Positions 40,729 to 48,146 of a stretch of DNA of 64,000 nt are shown piece after piece. How positions within the stretch are numbered: the stretch's first letter is position 1; the number at the start of each line of letters is the position of its first letter. A program made the translations under genes and the position numbers. The stretch is from contig CP092079.1 of assembly GCA_022226955.1 (NCBI GenBank), positions 2,099,188 through 2,163,187 on the forward strand, read 5' to 3'. Source of the DNA: Nitrospira sp. (GTDB lineage Bacteria; Nitrospirota; Nitrospiria; Nitrospirales; Nitrospiraceae). The notes below the pieces were generated by a model. That model made no database searches, had not been told where the DNA came from, and saw only the letters and a program-made list of their open reading frames with translations.

Positions 40729-40965
40729 TTACAGTGCCTTGTGCGATCCGTCGCAAAACGGCGGGTTCTTCGTCTGCTTGCACTGGCACAACGCCACCGT
40801 TTTCTTCTCGGTCGTCGTGAATTCCATGGGTGTGAACTCGGTGCCCTTGTGCGACCCATCGCAGAACGGTTGATTCTTCGAACGGCCGCACCGGCACCAA
40901 TAATAGGTGCCCGGCTCTAACGACAAGACCGCGGGTTGCTTCGCTGCGATGACTGGCTTCTCCAT
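40729..40965 (-). CDS. Tandem CDGSH iron-sulfur protein
   Basis: A 78-residue protein with two CDGSH motifs, each C-x-C...FCDGSH (YWCRCGRSKNQPFCDGSH and LCQCKQTKNPPFCDGSH). Each can bind a [2Fe-2S] cluster with three Cys and one His, as in mitoNEET-type proteins, suggesting redox or cluster-transfer roles. It is the last of eleven minus-strand genes of the redox cluster beginning at 46898. Confidence 0.9.
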   Translation of the reverse strand: MEKPVIAAKQPAVLSLEPGTYYWCRCGRSKNQPFCDGSHKGTEFTPMEFTTTEKKTVALCQCKQTKNPPFCDGSHKAL

Positions 40966-41415: not shown

Positions 41416-41862
41416 TTAGAGATGCAACGGCTTAATCGGCGACACTACGGCCGCCGGATCGTTCTGCCACACCGACGCCGCCGCATCGACATACACTTCG
41501 ACTTCATTGCCGTCGGGATCCTGGAGATACAGACTTTGGCTCACGGTGTGATCGCTCATGCCGTCGATCGTCACACCGGCCTGCTCCAGCTCACGCTTCG
41601 CAGCGCGCAGTTCATCGAGACTGTCGCCGACTTTGATGCCGATGTGATACAGTCCGCGCCGCCGGCCTTGCAGAGGCCCTGGCGCGTCGCCCACTTGAAT
41701 CAGCAACAACTCGTGATGCGTGCGGCCGGACGTGAGCGCCGCGGCCGCGCCGTTGAAAATTTTTCCCACTTCCTGGAAGCCCAGCAGATCCCGGTAAAAC
41801 GCGAGCGACCGCTGCAGATCCTTCACATAAAACACCACATGGCCGAGATAGTGCGCTTTCAT
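41416..41862 (-). CDS. VOC-family (glyoxalase/dioxygenase fold) protein
   Basis: A 148-residue vicinal-oxygen-chelate protein with two beta-alpha-beta3 modules: YLGHVVFYVKDLQRSLAFYR at the start with metal-ligand candidate His, HHELLLIQVGD in the middle, GLYHIGIKVGDSLDEL, and YLQDPDGNEVEVYVD with Glu. The pattern suits a catechol-dioxygenase-like or glyoxalase-like enzyme, but the substrate is not readable. The ATG at 41862 has GAAGGAG eight bases upstream. Part of the redox cluster. Confidence 0.87.
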   Translation of the reverse strand: MKAHYLGHVVFYVKDLQRSLAFYRDLLGFQEVGKIFNGAAAALTSGRTHHELLLIQVGDAPGPLQGRRRGLYHIGIKVGDSLDELRAAKRELEQAGVTIDGMSDHTVSQSLYLQDPDGNEVEVYVDAAASVWQNDPAAVVSPIKPLHL

Positions 41863-41929
41863 GTCATACTCCTTCGGACGATTGCCGTTGTCCGGTTGTC
41901 CCACATCGCACCGCCCGTCAACAATCCAT

Positions 41930-42337
41930 TCAGGGCTTGTTCGGAGCTGTCGCCTTGAGGAGCGTCCGGACGGCCGCATGGGCCAATCCCACATCCGGGT
42001 CTCGTTGCAACGCATCGTAATAGTGCCGGCCGAAGCCGTCCCCGGATTCCGACGGTGTCAGGAGCGTCCGGACAGACTCGACCTGAGCGCGGACCGCCGC
42101 CTGATCAAACGCTTCTTTATTTGCGTCCAGTTCATCGAGCTTGGCCATCGATTGGGACAGGGGCCGCAGCCAGGCAAACCACGCATCTCCCAACACCAGC
42201 TGAAGAAACGCGCCATTGGTCGGGATCCGTCCATACACCCGCTCATACGTCACCCGCTCACCGTCTAACAAGGCCTTATGCAGGCGCAACAACGCCTGGG
42301 AAAACTGATTTAGATACTCTTTCGTATACTCTTGCAT
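41930..42337 (-). CDS. Hypothetical protein of the redox operon
   Basis: A 135-residue, mostly helical protein (YLNQFSQALLRLHKALLDGE, then LVLGDAWFAWLRPLSQSMAK). I do not recognise a named family. It has no signal, membrane segment or cysteine. The ATG at 42337 has GGGAGGT about eight bases upstream. It lies 16 bp after the SDR gene and 67 bp before the VOC gene on the same strand, so it probably belongs to the same transcript. Confidence 0.7.
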   Translation of the reverse strand: MQEYTKEYLNQFSQALLRLHKALLDGERVTYERVYGRIPTNGAFLQLVLGDAWFAWLRPLSQSMAKLDELDANKEAFDQAAVRAQVESVRTLLTPSESGDGFGRHYYDALQRDPDVGLAHAAVRTLLKATAPNKP

Positions 42338-42353
42338 GACGTGACCTCCCACC

Positions 42354-43058
42354 CTATGCTTTCCCTGCGGCCTTGACCCCGCCATGAGTCCCGATTGGGA
42401 TGGCTGCTCCATTGATCTCGCCGGCCTCATCCGAGGCGAGAAAGACCAATGTCTTTGCAATGGATTCCGGTTTCGTCCAGGTGGAGGGATCCACCTCGGG
42501 CATGCTCAGACGATTCGCCGGAGTATCGATAGTCGTCGGCAGAACCCCGTTGACTGTCACCCCTGAACCTTTCATCTCAAGCGCCACCACGCGAATCAAG
42601 GCCAGCAGGCTCGACTTGGCGACAAGATAGGCCGCCGCGCCAGGAAACGGTTCGACCGCCGCCCAGGCCGCCACATGAAGGATGCGGCCGGCCCCTTGCT
42701 CAACCATGGACGGCACCACGGACTTCGAGAGGAGAAACGCCGCGGTCACGTTCATGGTCAACATCCGTTGCCACAAGACCGCATCCGTCTCCTCCAACCG
42801 GCCCATCGAAAAGCCGCCGACCAAATTGATCAACACATCGAGACGGCCATGCGCGCGGACCACGTCGCCGACCAGGCGCCGGACATCCGTTTCATCCGTC
42901 ACATCGGCCTTCATCGCTGTCCACCCAACCACGTCAGAGGGTGGGTTGCGATCCGCCGTGACGACTTGCGCGCCCGCCTGGATACAGGCTGGAACGACGC
43001 TCTGTCCCAGCGCCCCAGATCCCCCTGCGATCAGGACCACTTTTCCATCGAGTCTCAT
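42354..43058 (-). CDS. SDR-family oxidoreductase
   Basis: A 234-residue short-chain dehydrogenase with an atypical nucleotide loop (IAGGSGALGQ), LINLVGGF in place of NNAG, and YLVAK for the Tyr-Lys pair. The catalytic Ser position reads HVAAWAAV, lacking an obvious Ser. It is therefore a divergent SDR and might be non-classical or NAD-sensing. It is part of the redox operon, 44 bp after the DUF5069 gene. Confidence 0.85.
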   Translation of the reverse strand: MRLDGKVVLIAGGSGALGQSVVPACIQAGAQVVTADRNPPSDVVGWTAMKADVTDETDVRRLVGDVVRAHGRLDVLINLVGGFSMGRLEETDAVLWQRMLTMNVTAAFLLSKSVVPSMVEQGAGRILHVAAWAAVEPFPGAAAYLVAKSSLLALIRVVALEMKGSGVTVNGVLPTTIDTPANRLSMPEVDPSTWTKPESIAKTLVFLASDEAGEINGAAIPIGTHGGVKAAGKA

Positions 43059-43102: not shown

Positions 43103-43561
43103 TCAAAAGCGCTTCTCTTCGAGATCGTACACATCGAAATACGCGTAGACGGGGCGATGCTTCGGCACATACTGCGCGATGTAGTCTTCCATATACGCTT
43201 GTACCTGCGTCGACATCTCCGAAAGACGCAGGTCCCGCATCTGGTTGTTCCACTGAATGATCGCCTGCCGGTCCTGCACCTTGCTATGAGCCTTGAGCCA
43301 GGCAGCCAGATCCTCATCGTTCGCCCCGGTAGCCACGATGTCCTTGAATTGCTCCGGCGTGATGCCGGTGAACGAGAACAACATGCCGGCTAACGAGCAG
43401 GGCCAGTAATTGTAGTCCCCATTGATACCCAGAAGAAACGCCCGGCACTTGTCCGCGCAACGCGCGCCGATGACATATCCCCCCAATGTCTCTCGCGGGC
43501 TGCGAGGATAGGTCTTCGTGAGATCTTTCGCCAGCGCCCGCACCGTTTCTAAATTAGGCAT
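43103..43561 (-). CDS. DUF5069-family protein
   Basis: A 152-residue cytosolic protein resembling the DUF5069 family. PRSPRETLGGYVIGARCADK opens the conserved part and FLLGINGDYNYWPCSLAGML follows, with a helical C-terminal region. The biochemical role of the family is unknown. The start at 43561 (MPNLETVRAL) overlaps the stop of the preceding VOC gene by eight bases. Cysteines at ARCADKCRAF and YWPCS are conserved-looking, and a metal- or thiol-based function is possible. Confidence 0.78.
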   Translation of the reverse strand: MPNLETVRALAKDLTKTYPRSPRETLGGYVIGARCADKCRAFLLGINGDYNYWPCSLAGMLFSFTGITPEQFKDIVATGANDEDLAAWLKAHSKVQDRQAIIQWNNQMRDLRLSEMSTQVQAYMEDYIAQYVPKHRPVYAYFDVYDLEEKRF

Positions 43562-44009
43562 CCTGTCGTTCCTTTCTTTGTCTTCGCCGAACAGGTGAAG
43601 GTGTCGCGAATGTAATTCCCGTCTTCTGAACCTCTCGATAGGGAAGCAACCACACGAGCGACTCATCGCTCAGGTCGCCGACTTGAATGCGATTGCCCCA
43701 GGGATCGCGAAAATCGCAGCGGAATCCCGGCTGCATCTTCAGCTTGTACTTCTTCGTCAACTTCTGCCTGACTTCTTCGATCTGCTTGGCGTCGCGAACC
43801 ATCAGGCCGAAATGTTTCATGCGGTCCGGCTGCAGGGTGTCCACCTCGAAGATCGCCAGGAACTGATGTTCGCCGAGCTGGCACCAGGCAGCCCCTTCGC
43901 CGCCCTTAAGCATCTTGAGGCCGAACACATCCGCGTAGAACTTCACCGCCTTCTTGGCGTCGGTGACTTCGATCACGATATGGTTGCACCCATAGACTTG
44001 CACGGCCAT
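43554..44009 (-). CDS. VOC-family (glyoxalase-like) protein
   Basis: A 151-residue vicinal-oxygen-chelate protein (GCNHIVIEVTDAKKAVKFYA, HQFLAIFEVD, KHFGLMVRDAKQIEEVRQKL, CDFRDPWGNRIQVGDL). The ATG at 44009 shares a base with the stop of the DsbA-like gene (TGATG), implying coupled translation. The C-terminus is basic (PVRRRQRKERQDA) and overlaps the next gene. The substrate is unknown, but the placement between DsbA-like and DUF5069 genes suggests an electrophile or peroxide response. Confidence 0.87.
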   Translation of the reverse strand: MAVQVYGCNHIVIEVTDAKKAVKFYADVFGLKMLKGGEGAAWCQLGEHQFLAIFEVDTLQPDRMKHFGLMVRDAKQIEEVRQKLTKKYKLKMQPGFRCDFRDPWGNRIQVGDLSDESLVWLLPYREVQKTGITFATPSPVRRRQRKERQDA

Positions 44010-44671
44010 CACACACCTGCCTTTCGCTCCGGACGATCCGCCGCCGCCCCTGTGAGGACCTGCACGAACGTCTCGACCGGTTGCGCGCCGGAGATCGCGC
44101 GGGCCCCGCCGATCAGGAAATAGGGCACGCTGCGGATGTTCTGCGCATGCCCGGCGGCCGCTTCGGCGTTCACCTCCGGCACGCCGGCATCGCTCTGGAG
44201 AAACCGTTCCGCATCCGGCAATCCTGCCCGCCCTGCCAACTGCGCAAGCACGGGGATCATTCCGATATCCGCGCCTTCCTCGAAATAGCCGCGGAAGAGC
44301 GAATCGACTACCGCATTCTGGCACCCGTTCCTTCCCGCAAACCATATCAGCCGATGCGCCGCGAACGTATTCGGAGCCCGGGCGATCTTGTCGAAGGCAA
44401 ACGTAATCCCTGTCGATGCACCAGCCGCCTGCACCTGCTCCTCCAATTGCCGGAATGAATCCAGGCTCCCGAATTTAGCTTCGAGATAAGCCCTCCGATC
44501 CATCCCGGCGCTTGGCATCGTCGGGTTCAATTGAAACGGTTTCCAGACGACCTGCGTCGTCAGCCGGTCTTTCAATCGATCCAACGCGCGCTCCAGCCGC
44601 CGCTTCCCGACATAACACCAAGGGCAGACCACGTCGGAATAGACCTCGATCTTGAGCGTCGGCTCGATCAC
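44009..44671 (-). CDS. DsbA-family (FrnE-like) thioredoxin-fold oxidoreductase
   Basis: A 220-residue cytosolic DsbA-superfamily protein. The active site is CPWC in VYSDVVCPWCYVGKRRLERA, followed by the helical insertion and the cis-Pro loop in VPYFLIGG. This matches FrnE-like 2-hydroxychromene-2-carboxylate isomerase/DsbA proteins, which often act in oxidative or disulfide stress. It overlaps the pirin gene by four bases (ATGA) and the VOC gene by one base. No signal peptide is present. Confidence 0.9.
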   Translation of the reverse strand: MIEPTLKIEVYSDVVCPWCYVGKRRLERALDRLKDRLTTQVVWKPFQLNPTMPSAGMDRRAYLEAKFGSLDSFRQLEEQVQAAGASTGITFAFDKIARAPNTFAAHRLIWFAGRNGCQNAVVDSLFRGYFEEGADIGMIPVLAQLAGRAGLPDAERFLQSDAGVPEVNAEAAAGHAQNIRSVPYFLIGGARAISGAQPVETFVQVLTGAAADRPERKAGV

Positions 44672-45549
44672 GATAAGTGCCCCATCTTCCCAGCCTGATA
44701 ATCCTGCACCGCCTGAACTAGCTCAGCCTTCGTATTCATCACGAAGGGCCCATACCGGGCGATCGGTTCATTGAGCGGCGTGCCGCTCATGACCAGCAGC
44801 CGACTGTCTTCCTGCGCTTCGATCATGACTTGCGAGCCGCCCCGTTCGCAGACGATGAGTTCGGCTTCGCCTGCCTCGCGAGATCCATTCACTGAGGCGC
44901 GGCCCTGCAAAACAAAGATCGAGCTCGTGTCGCCTTCCGGCACGGTCAATTCCACTCGGCCGCCTGCCTTCAACTGAACGTCGTACAATTGAACCGGGGA
45001 AAACGTGTGCGCCGGGCCGTTGTTCCCGAGATACGATCCGGCAATCACTCGCAACGTTCCACGGCCATCCAGATCGACGGTCGGAATGTCGGCCTTCAAA
45101 ATCGTCTGATACCCGGGCGCCGACATTTTCGACGCGCGCGGCAAGTTCACCCACAACTGAATGGCGTGGAGCGTGCCGCCTTTCTTCGCAAACTCCTTTT
45201 CGTGAAACTCCTCATGGACGATGCCGGACGCCGCCGTCATCCATTGCACATCGCCGGGACCGATGACGCCGCCGCTGCCGGTCGAGTCGCGATGCGCCAG
45301 CACGCCGCCATACACGATCGTCACTGTTTCAAACCCCCGGTGCGGATGCTCTCCGACACCGCGCGGATGGTCGGTCGGCTGGAAATACTGCGGTCCCGCA
45401 TAGTCGAGCATGAGAAACGGATCCACGACTCGGTCGAGATCGTTGCTCGGAAACAGATTCCTGACGGGAAACCCGTCGCCGACCATATGAGCGGAACCCG
45501 GCTGATAGACCCCGAGAACGGCTTTTGCGGTTGTCGTTTCTGTTGCCAT
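44668..45549 (-). CDS. Pirin-family protein
   Basis: A 293-residue bicupin. The N-terminal cupin has the metal motif in GVGEHPHRGFETVTIVYGG and the later VHEEFHEKE His/Glu pair, and the C-terminal cupin is degenerate (FVLQGRASVN, LLVMSGTPLNEPIARYGPFV). Bacterial pirins can oxidise quercetin-like flavonoids or sense redox through iron. Two ATGs are possible (45552 and 45549); the second fits GGGAGGG spacing better. Overlaps the DsbA-like gene by four bases, 22 bp after the NmrA gene. Confidence 0.93.
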   Translation of the reverse strand: MATETTTAKAVLGVYQPGSAHMVGDGFPVRNLFPSNDLDRVVDPFLMLDYAGPQYFQPTDHPRGVGEHPHRGFETVTIVYGGVLAHRDSTGSGGVIGPGDVQWMTAASGIVHEEFHEKEFAKKGGTLHAIQLWVNLPRASKMSAPGYQTILKADIPTVDLDGRGTLRVIAGSYLGNNGPAHTFSPVQLYDVQLKAGGRVELTVPEGDTSSIFVLQGRASVNGSREAGEAELIVCERGGSQVMIEAQEDSRLLVMSGTPLNEPIARYGPFVMNTKAELVQAVQDYQAGKMGHLS

Positions 45550-45571
45550 CATGCCCTCCCTTCGTGAGCCC

Positions 45572-46429
45572 TTACGCCATCCCTCGCAATGCATCGGCAA
45601 GCGTCACCGTGCCCCGCAGGAGCTGCTCGGGATATTCATATGCAATCGTCTTCTTGGCGAACGCCGCATACATCTCTTCGAATAAGGTGGCTGCCTCCGT
45701 CGAGAAGCCATACGACGTGAACGTCGGCACCACCGCACTGAGCGGCGCGAACTGCGCGGACACTGGCTTCCCCAGAATCTGGCTCAGGGCTGCAGCTGCC
45801 TCTGCCGGGCTGTATTCTTCAGGTCCCGAGAGCTCGACGACCTGCCGGCCTTTCCCGCCTGCGATCAACCGTTCGGCCCCTACACGACCGATGTCGCTGG
45901 TCGAGACCATCGGAATCTTGGCCGCCGGCTCGAGGAATGTCGGCAACAGACCCTGACTCTTCGCCATGCCGATTCCCGGCGCCCAATTTTCCATGAAAGA
46001 GGACGGGCGCAGGATCGTGAGATTCTTGGCGACCGCCCCCAGCACCTGCTCTCCATAGCGAGCGGCTCGGATCGGCCCGGTGCCCTCGGCAATGTGGCCG
46101 CCGACAGATGAGAGGAATACCACATGAGAAACCCCGCTGGCTTTCACCGCTTGCGCGGCCTGATCCATCCGTTGCCGCTGCTCCGCCAGCCAGGCCGTCG
46201 CGCCATAGTTCGGCGGCACCAGCAGATAGACGCCAGTTGCACCGGTCAGGGCTTGGGTCATTGCGGGAACATCCTCCAGCGACGCAACGGCCACCTCCGC
46301 GCCCTTCGCTTTCCAGGCAGCGCCTTTGTCCGCTGAGCGCACCACGACACGCACCGGCTGGCGGCGCGCCAGTAACGTCTCCGCAACAACCGACCCTGTA
46401 TGGCCTGTGGCACCCAATACAACAAACAT
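45572..46429 (-). CDS. NmrA-like NAD(P)-binding family protein
   Basis: A 285-residue atypical SDR. The N-terminal loop FVVLGATGHTGSVVAETLLA binds NAD(P), and FLSSVGGHIAEGTGPI and ILRPSSFMENWAPG are typical of NmrA/QOR2-type proteins, which are NAD(P)H quinone reductases or redox sensors. The start at 46429 is backed by AAAGGAG seven bases upstream. It lies 25 bp after DoxX and precedes pirin. Confidence 0.88.
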   Translation of the reverse strand: MFVVLGATGHTGSVVAETLLARRQPVRVVVRSADKGAAWKAKGAEVAVASLEDVPAMTQALTGATGVYLLVPPNYGATAWLAEQRQRMDQAAQAVKASGVSHVVFLSSVGGHIAEGTGPIRAARYGEQVLGAVAKNLTILRPSSFMENWAPGIGMAKSQGLLPTFLEPAAKIPMVSTSDIGRVGAERLIAGGKGRQVVELSGPEEYSPAEAAAALSQILGKPVSAQFAPLSAVVPTFTSYGFSTEAATLFEEMYAAFAKKTIAYEYPEQLLRGTVTLADALRGMA

Positions 46430-46454: not shown

Positions 46455-46898
46455 TCAGAACCGCTCCGCCAACTTGCCATCAATCGATCCCTTGCCGCCC
46501 CCTGTCACCAGCAGGGCCGCCGCGATTCCAATCACCAGCAGATGATACTCATAACCCTCACCCTGTTGCTGGCCCATCCAGTTCATGAAAAATCCATAGG
46601 GGAGGTGCGCCATCGTGATGGCCCCAAGCATGATCACGATCAAAGACCCGGCGCTGAACCTCGTCAGAAATCCACTGATCAGTCCAAGGCTCCCAAAAAA
46701 CTCCCCGATGATAACCAGGAACGCGATGATCCAGGGCAGCCCCAGCTTCTGGGTGAAGAACCCCATCGTGCCGTCGAAGCCGAACCCCCCGAATAATCCC
46801 AGAAGCTTTTGCGCGCCATGCGGAAACATCACTAGTCCTAGCGTCAGCCGCAAGATCAGTCCAGCCCAGCCATCATCTGTTTGAAAAAATGCCTTCAT
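46455..46898 (-). CDS. DoxX-family membrane protein
   Basis: A 147-residue protein with four membrane helices ([61 protein letters not shown]). The HGAQKL motif is characteristic of DoxX/DoxD-like proteins, related to the quinol-oxidising subunit of archaeal thiosulfate:quinone oxidoreductase. In many bacteria such proteins accompany pirins and are induced by redox stress. It is the first gene of the eleven-gene cluster, and its promoter contains an 18-bp palindrome. Confidence 0.9.
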
Positions 46899-46943: not shown

Positions 46944-46972
46944 AAGATAGTTCTAGCTAGAACTAAAGTCAA
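46944..46972 (-). promoter_or_regulatory. Sigma-70-type promoter of the redox operon with operator in the spacer
   Basis: On the minus strand TTGACT (46967-46972) and TATCTT (46944-46949) are separated by exactly 17 bases. The spacer is filled by the perfect 18-bp palindrome TAGTTCTAGCTAGAACTA (46948-46965), which reaches into the -10 box. This is the classic layout for a repressor that blocks polymerase. It lies about 46 bases before the DoxX start. The palindrome type suits a MarR- or HxlR-family dimer, but no such gene is in the window. Confidence 0.8.
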
Positions 46973-47110
46973 GTCATAAAATAGCGCCCTCCGTTGCCCA
47001 CCGAGTTCTTCGAGCTAAATTGTCGCCTTACAAGAAAAAACCCGCGCGAGCGAGGAAGAGGAAACAGAGGGGTCGGGTGACCGAACGAACGTGCGAGCAG
47101 GCCAGCGGTT

Positions 47111-47642: not shown

Positions 47643-48146
47643 ATGGTCGGCTCCGGTCCGTTCGTCTCATTCGGCACAATCCTCTCCGGCCTGGCCAAAC
47701 AACTCGGTTTGGAAACCAGGCTCGTCGAGTTGCGCATCCAGCAACAATGGCCGTCCCTCGTCGGCGAACCGATCGGTTCGCATACCTGGCCAGCCCAGAT
47801 CCGTTTCCACAAACTCTATCTACTCGTCGAAAATTCCGTCTGGCTCCAGCAGTTGACGTTTCTGAAACCGGCACTTCTGGCGAAAATCAATGCCGAGGCC
47901 GGATCGGAACTGCTGACGGACATCGTCCTGCGTGTGGGCGAAATCCCTTCACAAAAACCGGAGCCTGCTCCGGCAGCTCCAATCCTTCTGAACCACGCGG
48001 CGTCCGAGAAAGAACTGGCCGAGCTTGCCGCATATGTCACTGCCATTCACGACCCGAACATCCGCCGGCGCTTCACAGAGGTGATATCGAATTATCCTTC
48101 TCCGATTCAGATTCCGCCGGAAGAGCATCTGTCACCAGCCCCTTAA
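47643..48146 (+). CDS. DciA-like (DUF721) protein, probable helicase-loading factor
   Basis: A 167-residue protein with an N-terminal DUF721/DciA domain (VSFGTILSGLAKQLGLE, then LVELRIQQQWPSLVGEPIGS, VENSVWLQQLTFLKPALLAK). DciA proteins interact with the replicative helicase and replace DnaC/DnaI as loader in many bacteria. The position near dnaA, dnaN and gyrase supports this. The last 74 bases overlap, in antisense, the 3' end of the gene at 48073-48684. Divergent from smpB. Confidence 0.83.
   Translation: MVGSGPFVSFGTILSGLAKQLGLETRLVELRIQQQWPSLVGEPIGSHTWPAQIRFHKLYLLVENSVWLQQLTFLKPALLAKINAEAGSELLTDIVLRVGEIPSQKPEPAPAAPILLNHAASEKELAELAAYVTAIHDPNIRRRFTEVISNYPSPIQIPPEEHLSPAP

Follow-up and report, generated by a model that had tools for sequence, protein, structure and literature searches.

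A promoter palindrome ahead of the Nitrospira doxX operon is very probably the operator of a distantly encoded MarR-type repressor

In Bacillus, YodB and CatR, regulators of the HxlR family, control quinone-stress genes, including DoxX-like and glyoxalase/dioxygenase genes. To our knowledge, transcriptional control in Nitrospira-type bacteria is little worked out. In Staphylococcus aureus and Bacillus subtilis, the quinone repressor MhqR, which is of the MarR type, binds an inverted repeat of 9-9 bp at the mhqRED promoter (PMC6798810). Its operator in S. aureus, TATCTCGAA-aTCGAaATA, lies at -6 to +12, and a quinone precursor inactivates the repressor without a thiol mechanism (PMC6798810). Here, we describe a palindrome in a Nitrospira window (the whole 64,000-nt stretch of DNA that was analysed). 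From genome comparison, it is very probably the operator at which a MarR-type repressor, with its gene about 81 kb away, controls a probable redox/electrophile-detoxification operon. Text searches of the literature did not find the palindrome as an operator (the only text match came from an unrelated DNMT3A context) and found nothing combining MarR, DoxX and pirin.

The palindrome, its promoter and the downstream operon

The perfect 18-bp palindrome TAGTTCTAGCTAGAACTA lies on the minus strand at 46948..46965 (46965-46948), 50 bp upstream of the doxX ATG at 46898. It is flanked by a -35 hexamer TTGACT (46967..46972, minus strand) and a -10 hexamer TATCTT (46944..46949, minus strand), both from promoter prediction; TTGACT or TTGACA is kept in relatives. 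An earlier note on this DNA had reported a perfect palindrome between these hexamers ahead of DoxX, and its sequence and coordinates are correct. The same note had the palindrome filling the 17-bp spacer, TTAGTTCTAGCTAGAAC (46966-46950, minus strand). This is right for 16 of the 17 spacer bases; one base stays free, and the palindrome runs over the first two bases of the -10 hexamer. The site thus overlaps the predicted promoter, between -35 and -10 and two bases into the -10 element. Its 18-bp length is within the 16-20 bp range of (pseudo)palindromic MarR-family operators (PMC6798810).

The sigma-70-like TTGACT-17 bp-TATCTT arrangement is the sole promoter predicted on either strand between 46850 and 47150, where shuffled sequences give an expectation of 0.1. 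A terminator-like hairpin (47041..47054, minus strand) lies 3' of the upstream smpB, between that gene and the promoter, and is consistent with an independent promoter for the doxX operon.

All genes of the downstream cluster are on the minus strand. DoxX (46455..46898; PF07681, 5.8e-21) is the first gene of the operon. It is followed by an NmrA-like NAD(P)-binding protein (45572..46429, start codon by inspection; PF05368, 5.6e-21), a pirin (44668..45552; PF02678, 1e-32), a DsbA/FrnE-like thioredoxin-fold protein (44009..44671; PF01323, 5.6e-36), a glyoxalase/VOC-fold protein (43554..44000; PF00903, 1.7e-10), a DUF5069 protein (43103..43561; PF16798, 4.9e-47) and a short-chain dehydrogenase (SDR; 42354..43058; PF13561, 1e-36). 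The conserved operon protein c13 (41930..42340), present in 14 related loci, had no match in Pfam or NCBIfam and is not assigned to a family. A second glyoxalase/VOC-fold protein (41416..41865; PF00903, 8.6e-20) comes next. The small CDGSH-type protein c16 (40729..40965), whose cluster occurs in 13 loci, is possibly the last or a neighbouring member of the doxX cluster. The presence of DoxX, NmrA, pirin, DsbA/FrnE, glyoxalases and an SDR suggests that the operon serves under electrophile or quinone stress.

Conservation of the site and association with MarR

Palindromicity alone is not significant here, because 0.30 perfect palindromes of at least 18 bp are expected per window of the same composition and a second one is present (GCGAACCGATCGGTTCGC, 47764-47781, within the coding region 47643-48146), making two observed. 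Searches for further copies of TAGTTCTAGCTAGAACTA found none in the window at up to 3 mismatches; in the 3.64-Mb genome, there was none at up to 2 mismatches and one unconvincing match at 3. In the phylum, the palindrome (at most 2 mismatches) was present in 34 of 296 genomes, once in each and nearly always in the same family. Performing the family search with promoter context (TTGAC N1-4 palindrome), we found it in 63 of 117 genomes, compared with 1 for the backward control. Most mapped family loci have smpB upstream and the DoxX/NmrA/pirin/FrnE operon downstream of the palindrome. At family loci without DoxX, it precedes NmrA or pirin instead and so stays with the promoter. This family-wide conservation at orthologous promoters is what makes the palindrome significant. 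The earlier note had held that absence from such promoters would speak against an operator; we find that orthologous promoters retain the palindrome.

Scanning GTDB genomes for TAGTTCTANNTAGAACTA, we obtained 80 readable loci. In 20 of them, the exact palindrome is followed by a MarR start at a distance of at most 200 bp, as against 0.9 such cases expected if positions in these loci were random. In four loci of deep-branching Nitrospirota, the promoter of a pyridoxamine-phosphate-oxidase-like gene (named by sequence inspection) contains TAGTTCTATATAGAACTA (or one variant) in the same place. A MarR gene follows that gene in three of the four, and the fourth locus ends at a contig edge.

We then turn to the promoters of MarR orthologs, which were picked by protein similarity alone. 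They carry the element between TTGAx and TAT, for example TTGACAATCATACTAACTAGAACTATCATG (L208) and TTGACCCTTCATTCTAGTTAGGACTATCCT (L189), and 72% of them score at least 11/16 within 120 bp upstream, compared with 0.6% for dinucleotide shuffles. The earlier note had suggested a search for MarR/HxlR regulators with the palindrome in their own promoters; most of the MarR orthologs have the element there. High scores are a matter of selection in loci that were retrieved with the motif; the bias-free sets are these MarR promoters and the operon promoters L254-L265 described below. Scores of only 7-9/16 were obtained for the MarR promoters of the window's own genome and of its closest relatives (L181-L183). 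The autoregulatory site appears to be lost or unrecognisable there, which would explain why the genome has a single strong site.

The scan brought up further arrangements. In Lactobacillaceae (L082, L101, L106, L126), the exact palindrome lies 49-130 bp upstream of the start of MarR genes of another subfamily. In Gallionella-type MarR promoters (L085, L096, L135), the palindrome is closely followed downstream by a second half site (GGTTCTA-like), which suggests two dimer sites. The Paenibacillus matches (L088, L100, L146) were rejected as operators, as they lie within longer hairpins (AAAAGAG...CTCTTTT-like) that are probably terminators.

The regulator and the palindrome are lost together. 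We counted co-occurrence in 75 genomes that are at least 95% complete. The promoter-context pattern was present in 39 and absent in 15 MarR-positive genomes; among MarR-negative genomes, 1 had it and 20 did not (p=6e-8, shared ancestry ignored). Within the window's own genus, six MarR-positive genomes had the pattern and two did not, and none of the 18 MarR-negative genomes had it (p=1e-4, shared ancestry ignored). These Fisher p-values overstate independence because relatives share ancestry, and the 18 MarR-negative genomes of the genus may reflect few losses. The MarR-positive operons without the strict pattern (L254-L265) have a degenerate palindrome in place, scoring 12-15/16; in L266, the contig ends before the promoter. 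In the ten MarR-negative genomes that keep NmrA-pirin-FrnE (L244-L253), no palindrome was found at the operon, and scores were at the shuffled level. One MarR-negative genome (G077) has a weak remnant of 12/16 without TTGAC. No MarR was detected in five motif-positive genomes, of which four are 70-90% complete and the fifth, at 98% completeness, has 7% contamination. Loss of the regulator together with the operator, while the target genes are retained, amounts to a natural test of the protein-site pairing.

A different, GC-rich palindrome, TTCGGCACSGTGCCGAA, was seen upstream of the NmrA-pirin-FrnE operon in the MarR-less loci L244, L246 and L248-L253 (one with a mismatch). It is absent from the window, and in these relatives it is possibly another operator or a hairpin.

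The candidate regulator and alternative explanations

The genome encodes one HxlR protein, exactly one classic MarR and two longer MarR-like proteins. At G000:C1:798637-799892 (L032), the sole HxlR gene is divergent from a third pirin paralog, which suggests a separate HxlR-pirin unit. No such palindrome was seen in the intergenic region of this HxlR gene, and we rejected HxlR as the regulator. The two longer MarR-like proteins (L034, L035) were likewise rejected, since they fall outside the clade of palindrome-linked MarRs.

The classic MarR gene (151 aa; G000:C1:2064375-2064827, plus strand) lies outside the window, about 81 kb from the palindrome. The earlier note had seen no MarR or HxlR gene nearby, which is true of the neighbourhood. 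The protein has the MarR winged-helix domain (PF12802, 3.1e-15; PF01047, 3.7e-15; both above cut-off). It clusters with the palindrome-linked MarRs of Betaproteobacteria and Cyanobacteria (support 98/94; 42-53% identity) and shares with them a near-identical recognition helix, L-TKGTLTGV-DRL. Its own promoter has no recognisable palindrome (9/16), so that its link to the site rests on the orthologs. It scores below the cut-off of every named NCBIfam MarR equivalog that it matched and is therefore not an ortholog of a named regulator. The cysteine of this MarR (MTCSEL) is not kept in its cyanobacterial and several of its betaproteobacterial relatives; a conserved thiol switch thus seems unlikely, and a bound ligand is favoured.

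Orthologous promoters, MarR association and joint loss together support, on the MarR side, the earlier reading of the palindrome as a repressor operator of MarR/HxlR type. We infer the following switch, to which we give a probability of about 0.88. A dimer of the genome's classic MarR would bind TAGTTCTA-N2-TAGAACTA. Since the site occupies the spacer and reaches two bases into the -10 element, MarR bound there would deny RNA polymerase access to the promoter and so silence the DoxX-NmrA-pirin-FrnE-glyoxalase operon. Transcription of the operon would start once MarR is released by a small-molecule inducer, for which an electrophile or a quinone-like compound is the likeliest candidate. In sister lineages, MarR would also repress its own gene through the same element.

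Other explanations were weighed against this switch. A chance palindrome without function would agree with the 0.30 expected per window and with the further one in a coding region. However, the same promoter position is kept in 63 of 117 family genomes, MarR-positive operons that miss the strict pattern keep a degenerate palindrome, and operon-bearing MarR-negative genomes are without it. Conservation already contradicts a chance origin, to which we give almost no credence. Alternatively, the association with MarR could be coincidental, and the site could serve as operator for some other protein encoded elsewhere (HxlR, TetR or another family). The control of DoxX/glyoxalase-type quinone genes by HxlR proteins in Bacillus (YodB/CatR) and the one HxlR gene next to a pirin paralog in this genome would fit such a regulator. 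However, the HxlR promoter showed no such palindrome, and the genome search gave no further near copy. MarR is favoured by its genes lying next to the palindrome in 20 of 80 unrelated loci, by the element in MarR promoters and by the joint loss. From this comparison, which covered the MarR and HxlR families, we consider a different regulator unlikely.

An opposite mode of action concerns the spacing of the promoter. MarR or another protein could activate by twisting a long spacer, as MerR does. In several relatives, the -10 element can be read as TATAAT/TATACT at 19 bp from TTGACT, a spacing typical of MerR-activated promoters. However, it can also be read there as TATTAT at 16 bp, which fits these relatives too, and in the window and its genus the 17-bp TATCTT is the only reading with a good fit. 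Moreover, the associated regulators are MarR and not MerR, and the same site is found in the MarR genes' own promoters, as autorepression would predict. MerR-like activation is, in our judgement, very unlikely, and repression by MarR stays the preferred reading.

Wider regulon and comparison with known systems

Adding promoter context to the simple mismatch search, we found a second, weaker site in the same genome, TTGACTT-CAGTCCTAGTCAGTACTA-TCTATG (G000:C1:2239236-2239258, minus strand; 12/16). Downstream of it (L275, around 9235) are a pirin paralog and two isochorismatase-like genes, which lie between urease genes (names by sequence inspection). The cyanobacterium Elainella (L124) has its genes arranged as MarR-[site]-CDGSH-[site]-DoxX-DODA-GST, with CDGSH, DODA and GST named by inspection. 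The CDGSH protein, encoded between the two palindromes, is 48% identical to c16; homology to members of the Nitrospira clusters extends to DoxX (32% identity) and to a SnoaL-like protein of L125 (30% identity). Betaproteobacterial MarRs often stand ahead of cytochrome b561-like and YceI-like genes (by sequence inspection). Across Nitrospira, Cyanobacteria and Betaproteobacteria, the putative target genes point to redox or electrophile stress.

A broader view, for which we see an even chance, is that TAGTTCTA-NN-TAGAACTA may be one operator word common to deeply separated MarR subfamilies: a KGTLTG type (Nitrospirota, Betaproteobacteria, Cyanobacteria), a KSTLT type (deep Nitrospirota, a deltaproteobacterium, a Bathyarchaeota bin) and a Lactobacillaceae type. 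The genes under its control in Nitrospira and cyanobacteria would form an undescribed redox/electrophile regulon that the two groups share in part (DoxX, CDGSH, SnoaL-like); one Nitrospira clade would have lost autoregulation, and another the entire switch. For Nitrospira-type bacteria, the analysis names a probable regulator together with its probable operator and target operon, and the consensus allows this MarR regulon to be predicted in other phyla.

We compared the locus with the described systems. Like E. coli MarR, which is among its nearest solved structures (1.2e-10), the Nitrospira candidate has the winged-helix domain (PF12802/PF01047, 3e-15); it differs in reaching 50.1 bits against the NCBIfam equivalog cut-off of 240. 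With YodB/CatR, the locus has similar target gene classes in common, but those regulators belong to another family, and the HxlR promoter of this genome shows no such operator. The likeness to MhqR lies in the MarR family, in an 18-bp palindromic operator overlapping the promoter (binding is here predicted) and in quinone/electrophile genes. Release of MhqR without a thiol mechanism is also compatible with the non-conserved cysteine of the Nitrospira MarR. However, the candidate regulator is unlinked to its operon, and TAGTTCTAGCTAGAACTA does not match the MhqR operator sequence, which lies around the start site at the positions given above, as against TAGTTCTA-NN-TAGAACTA in the -35/-10 spacer here. 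Judged by these comparisons, the arrangement appears to be an ordinary kind of bacterial MarR-type switch, newly traced, with an operator sequence and a regulator that differ from those of MhqR.
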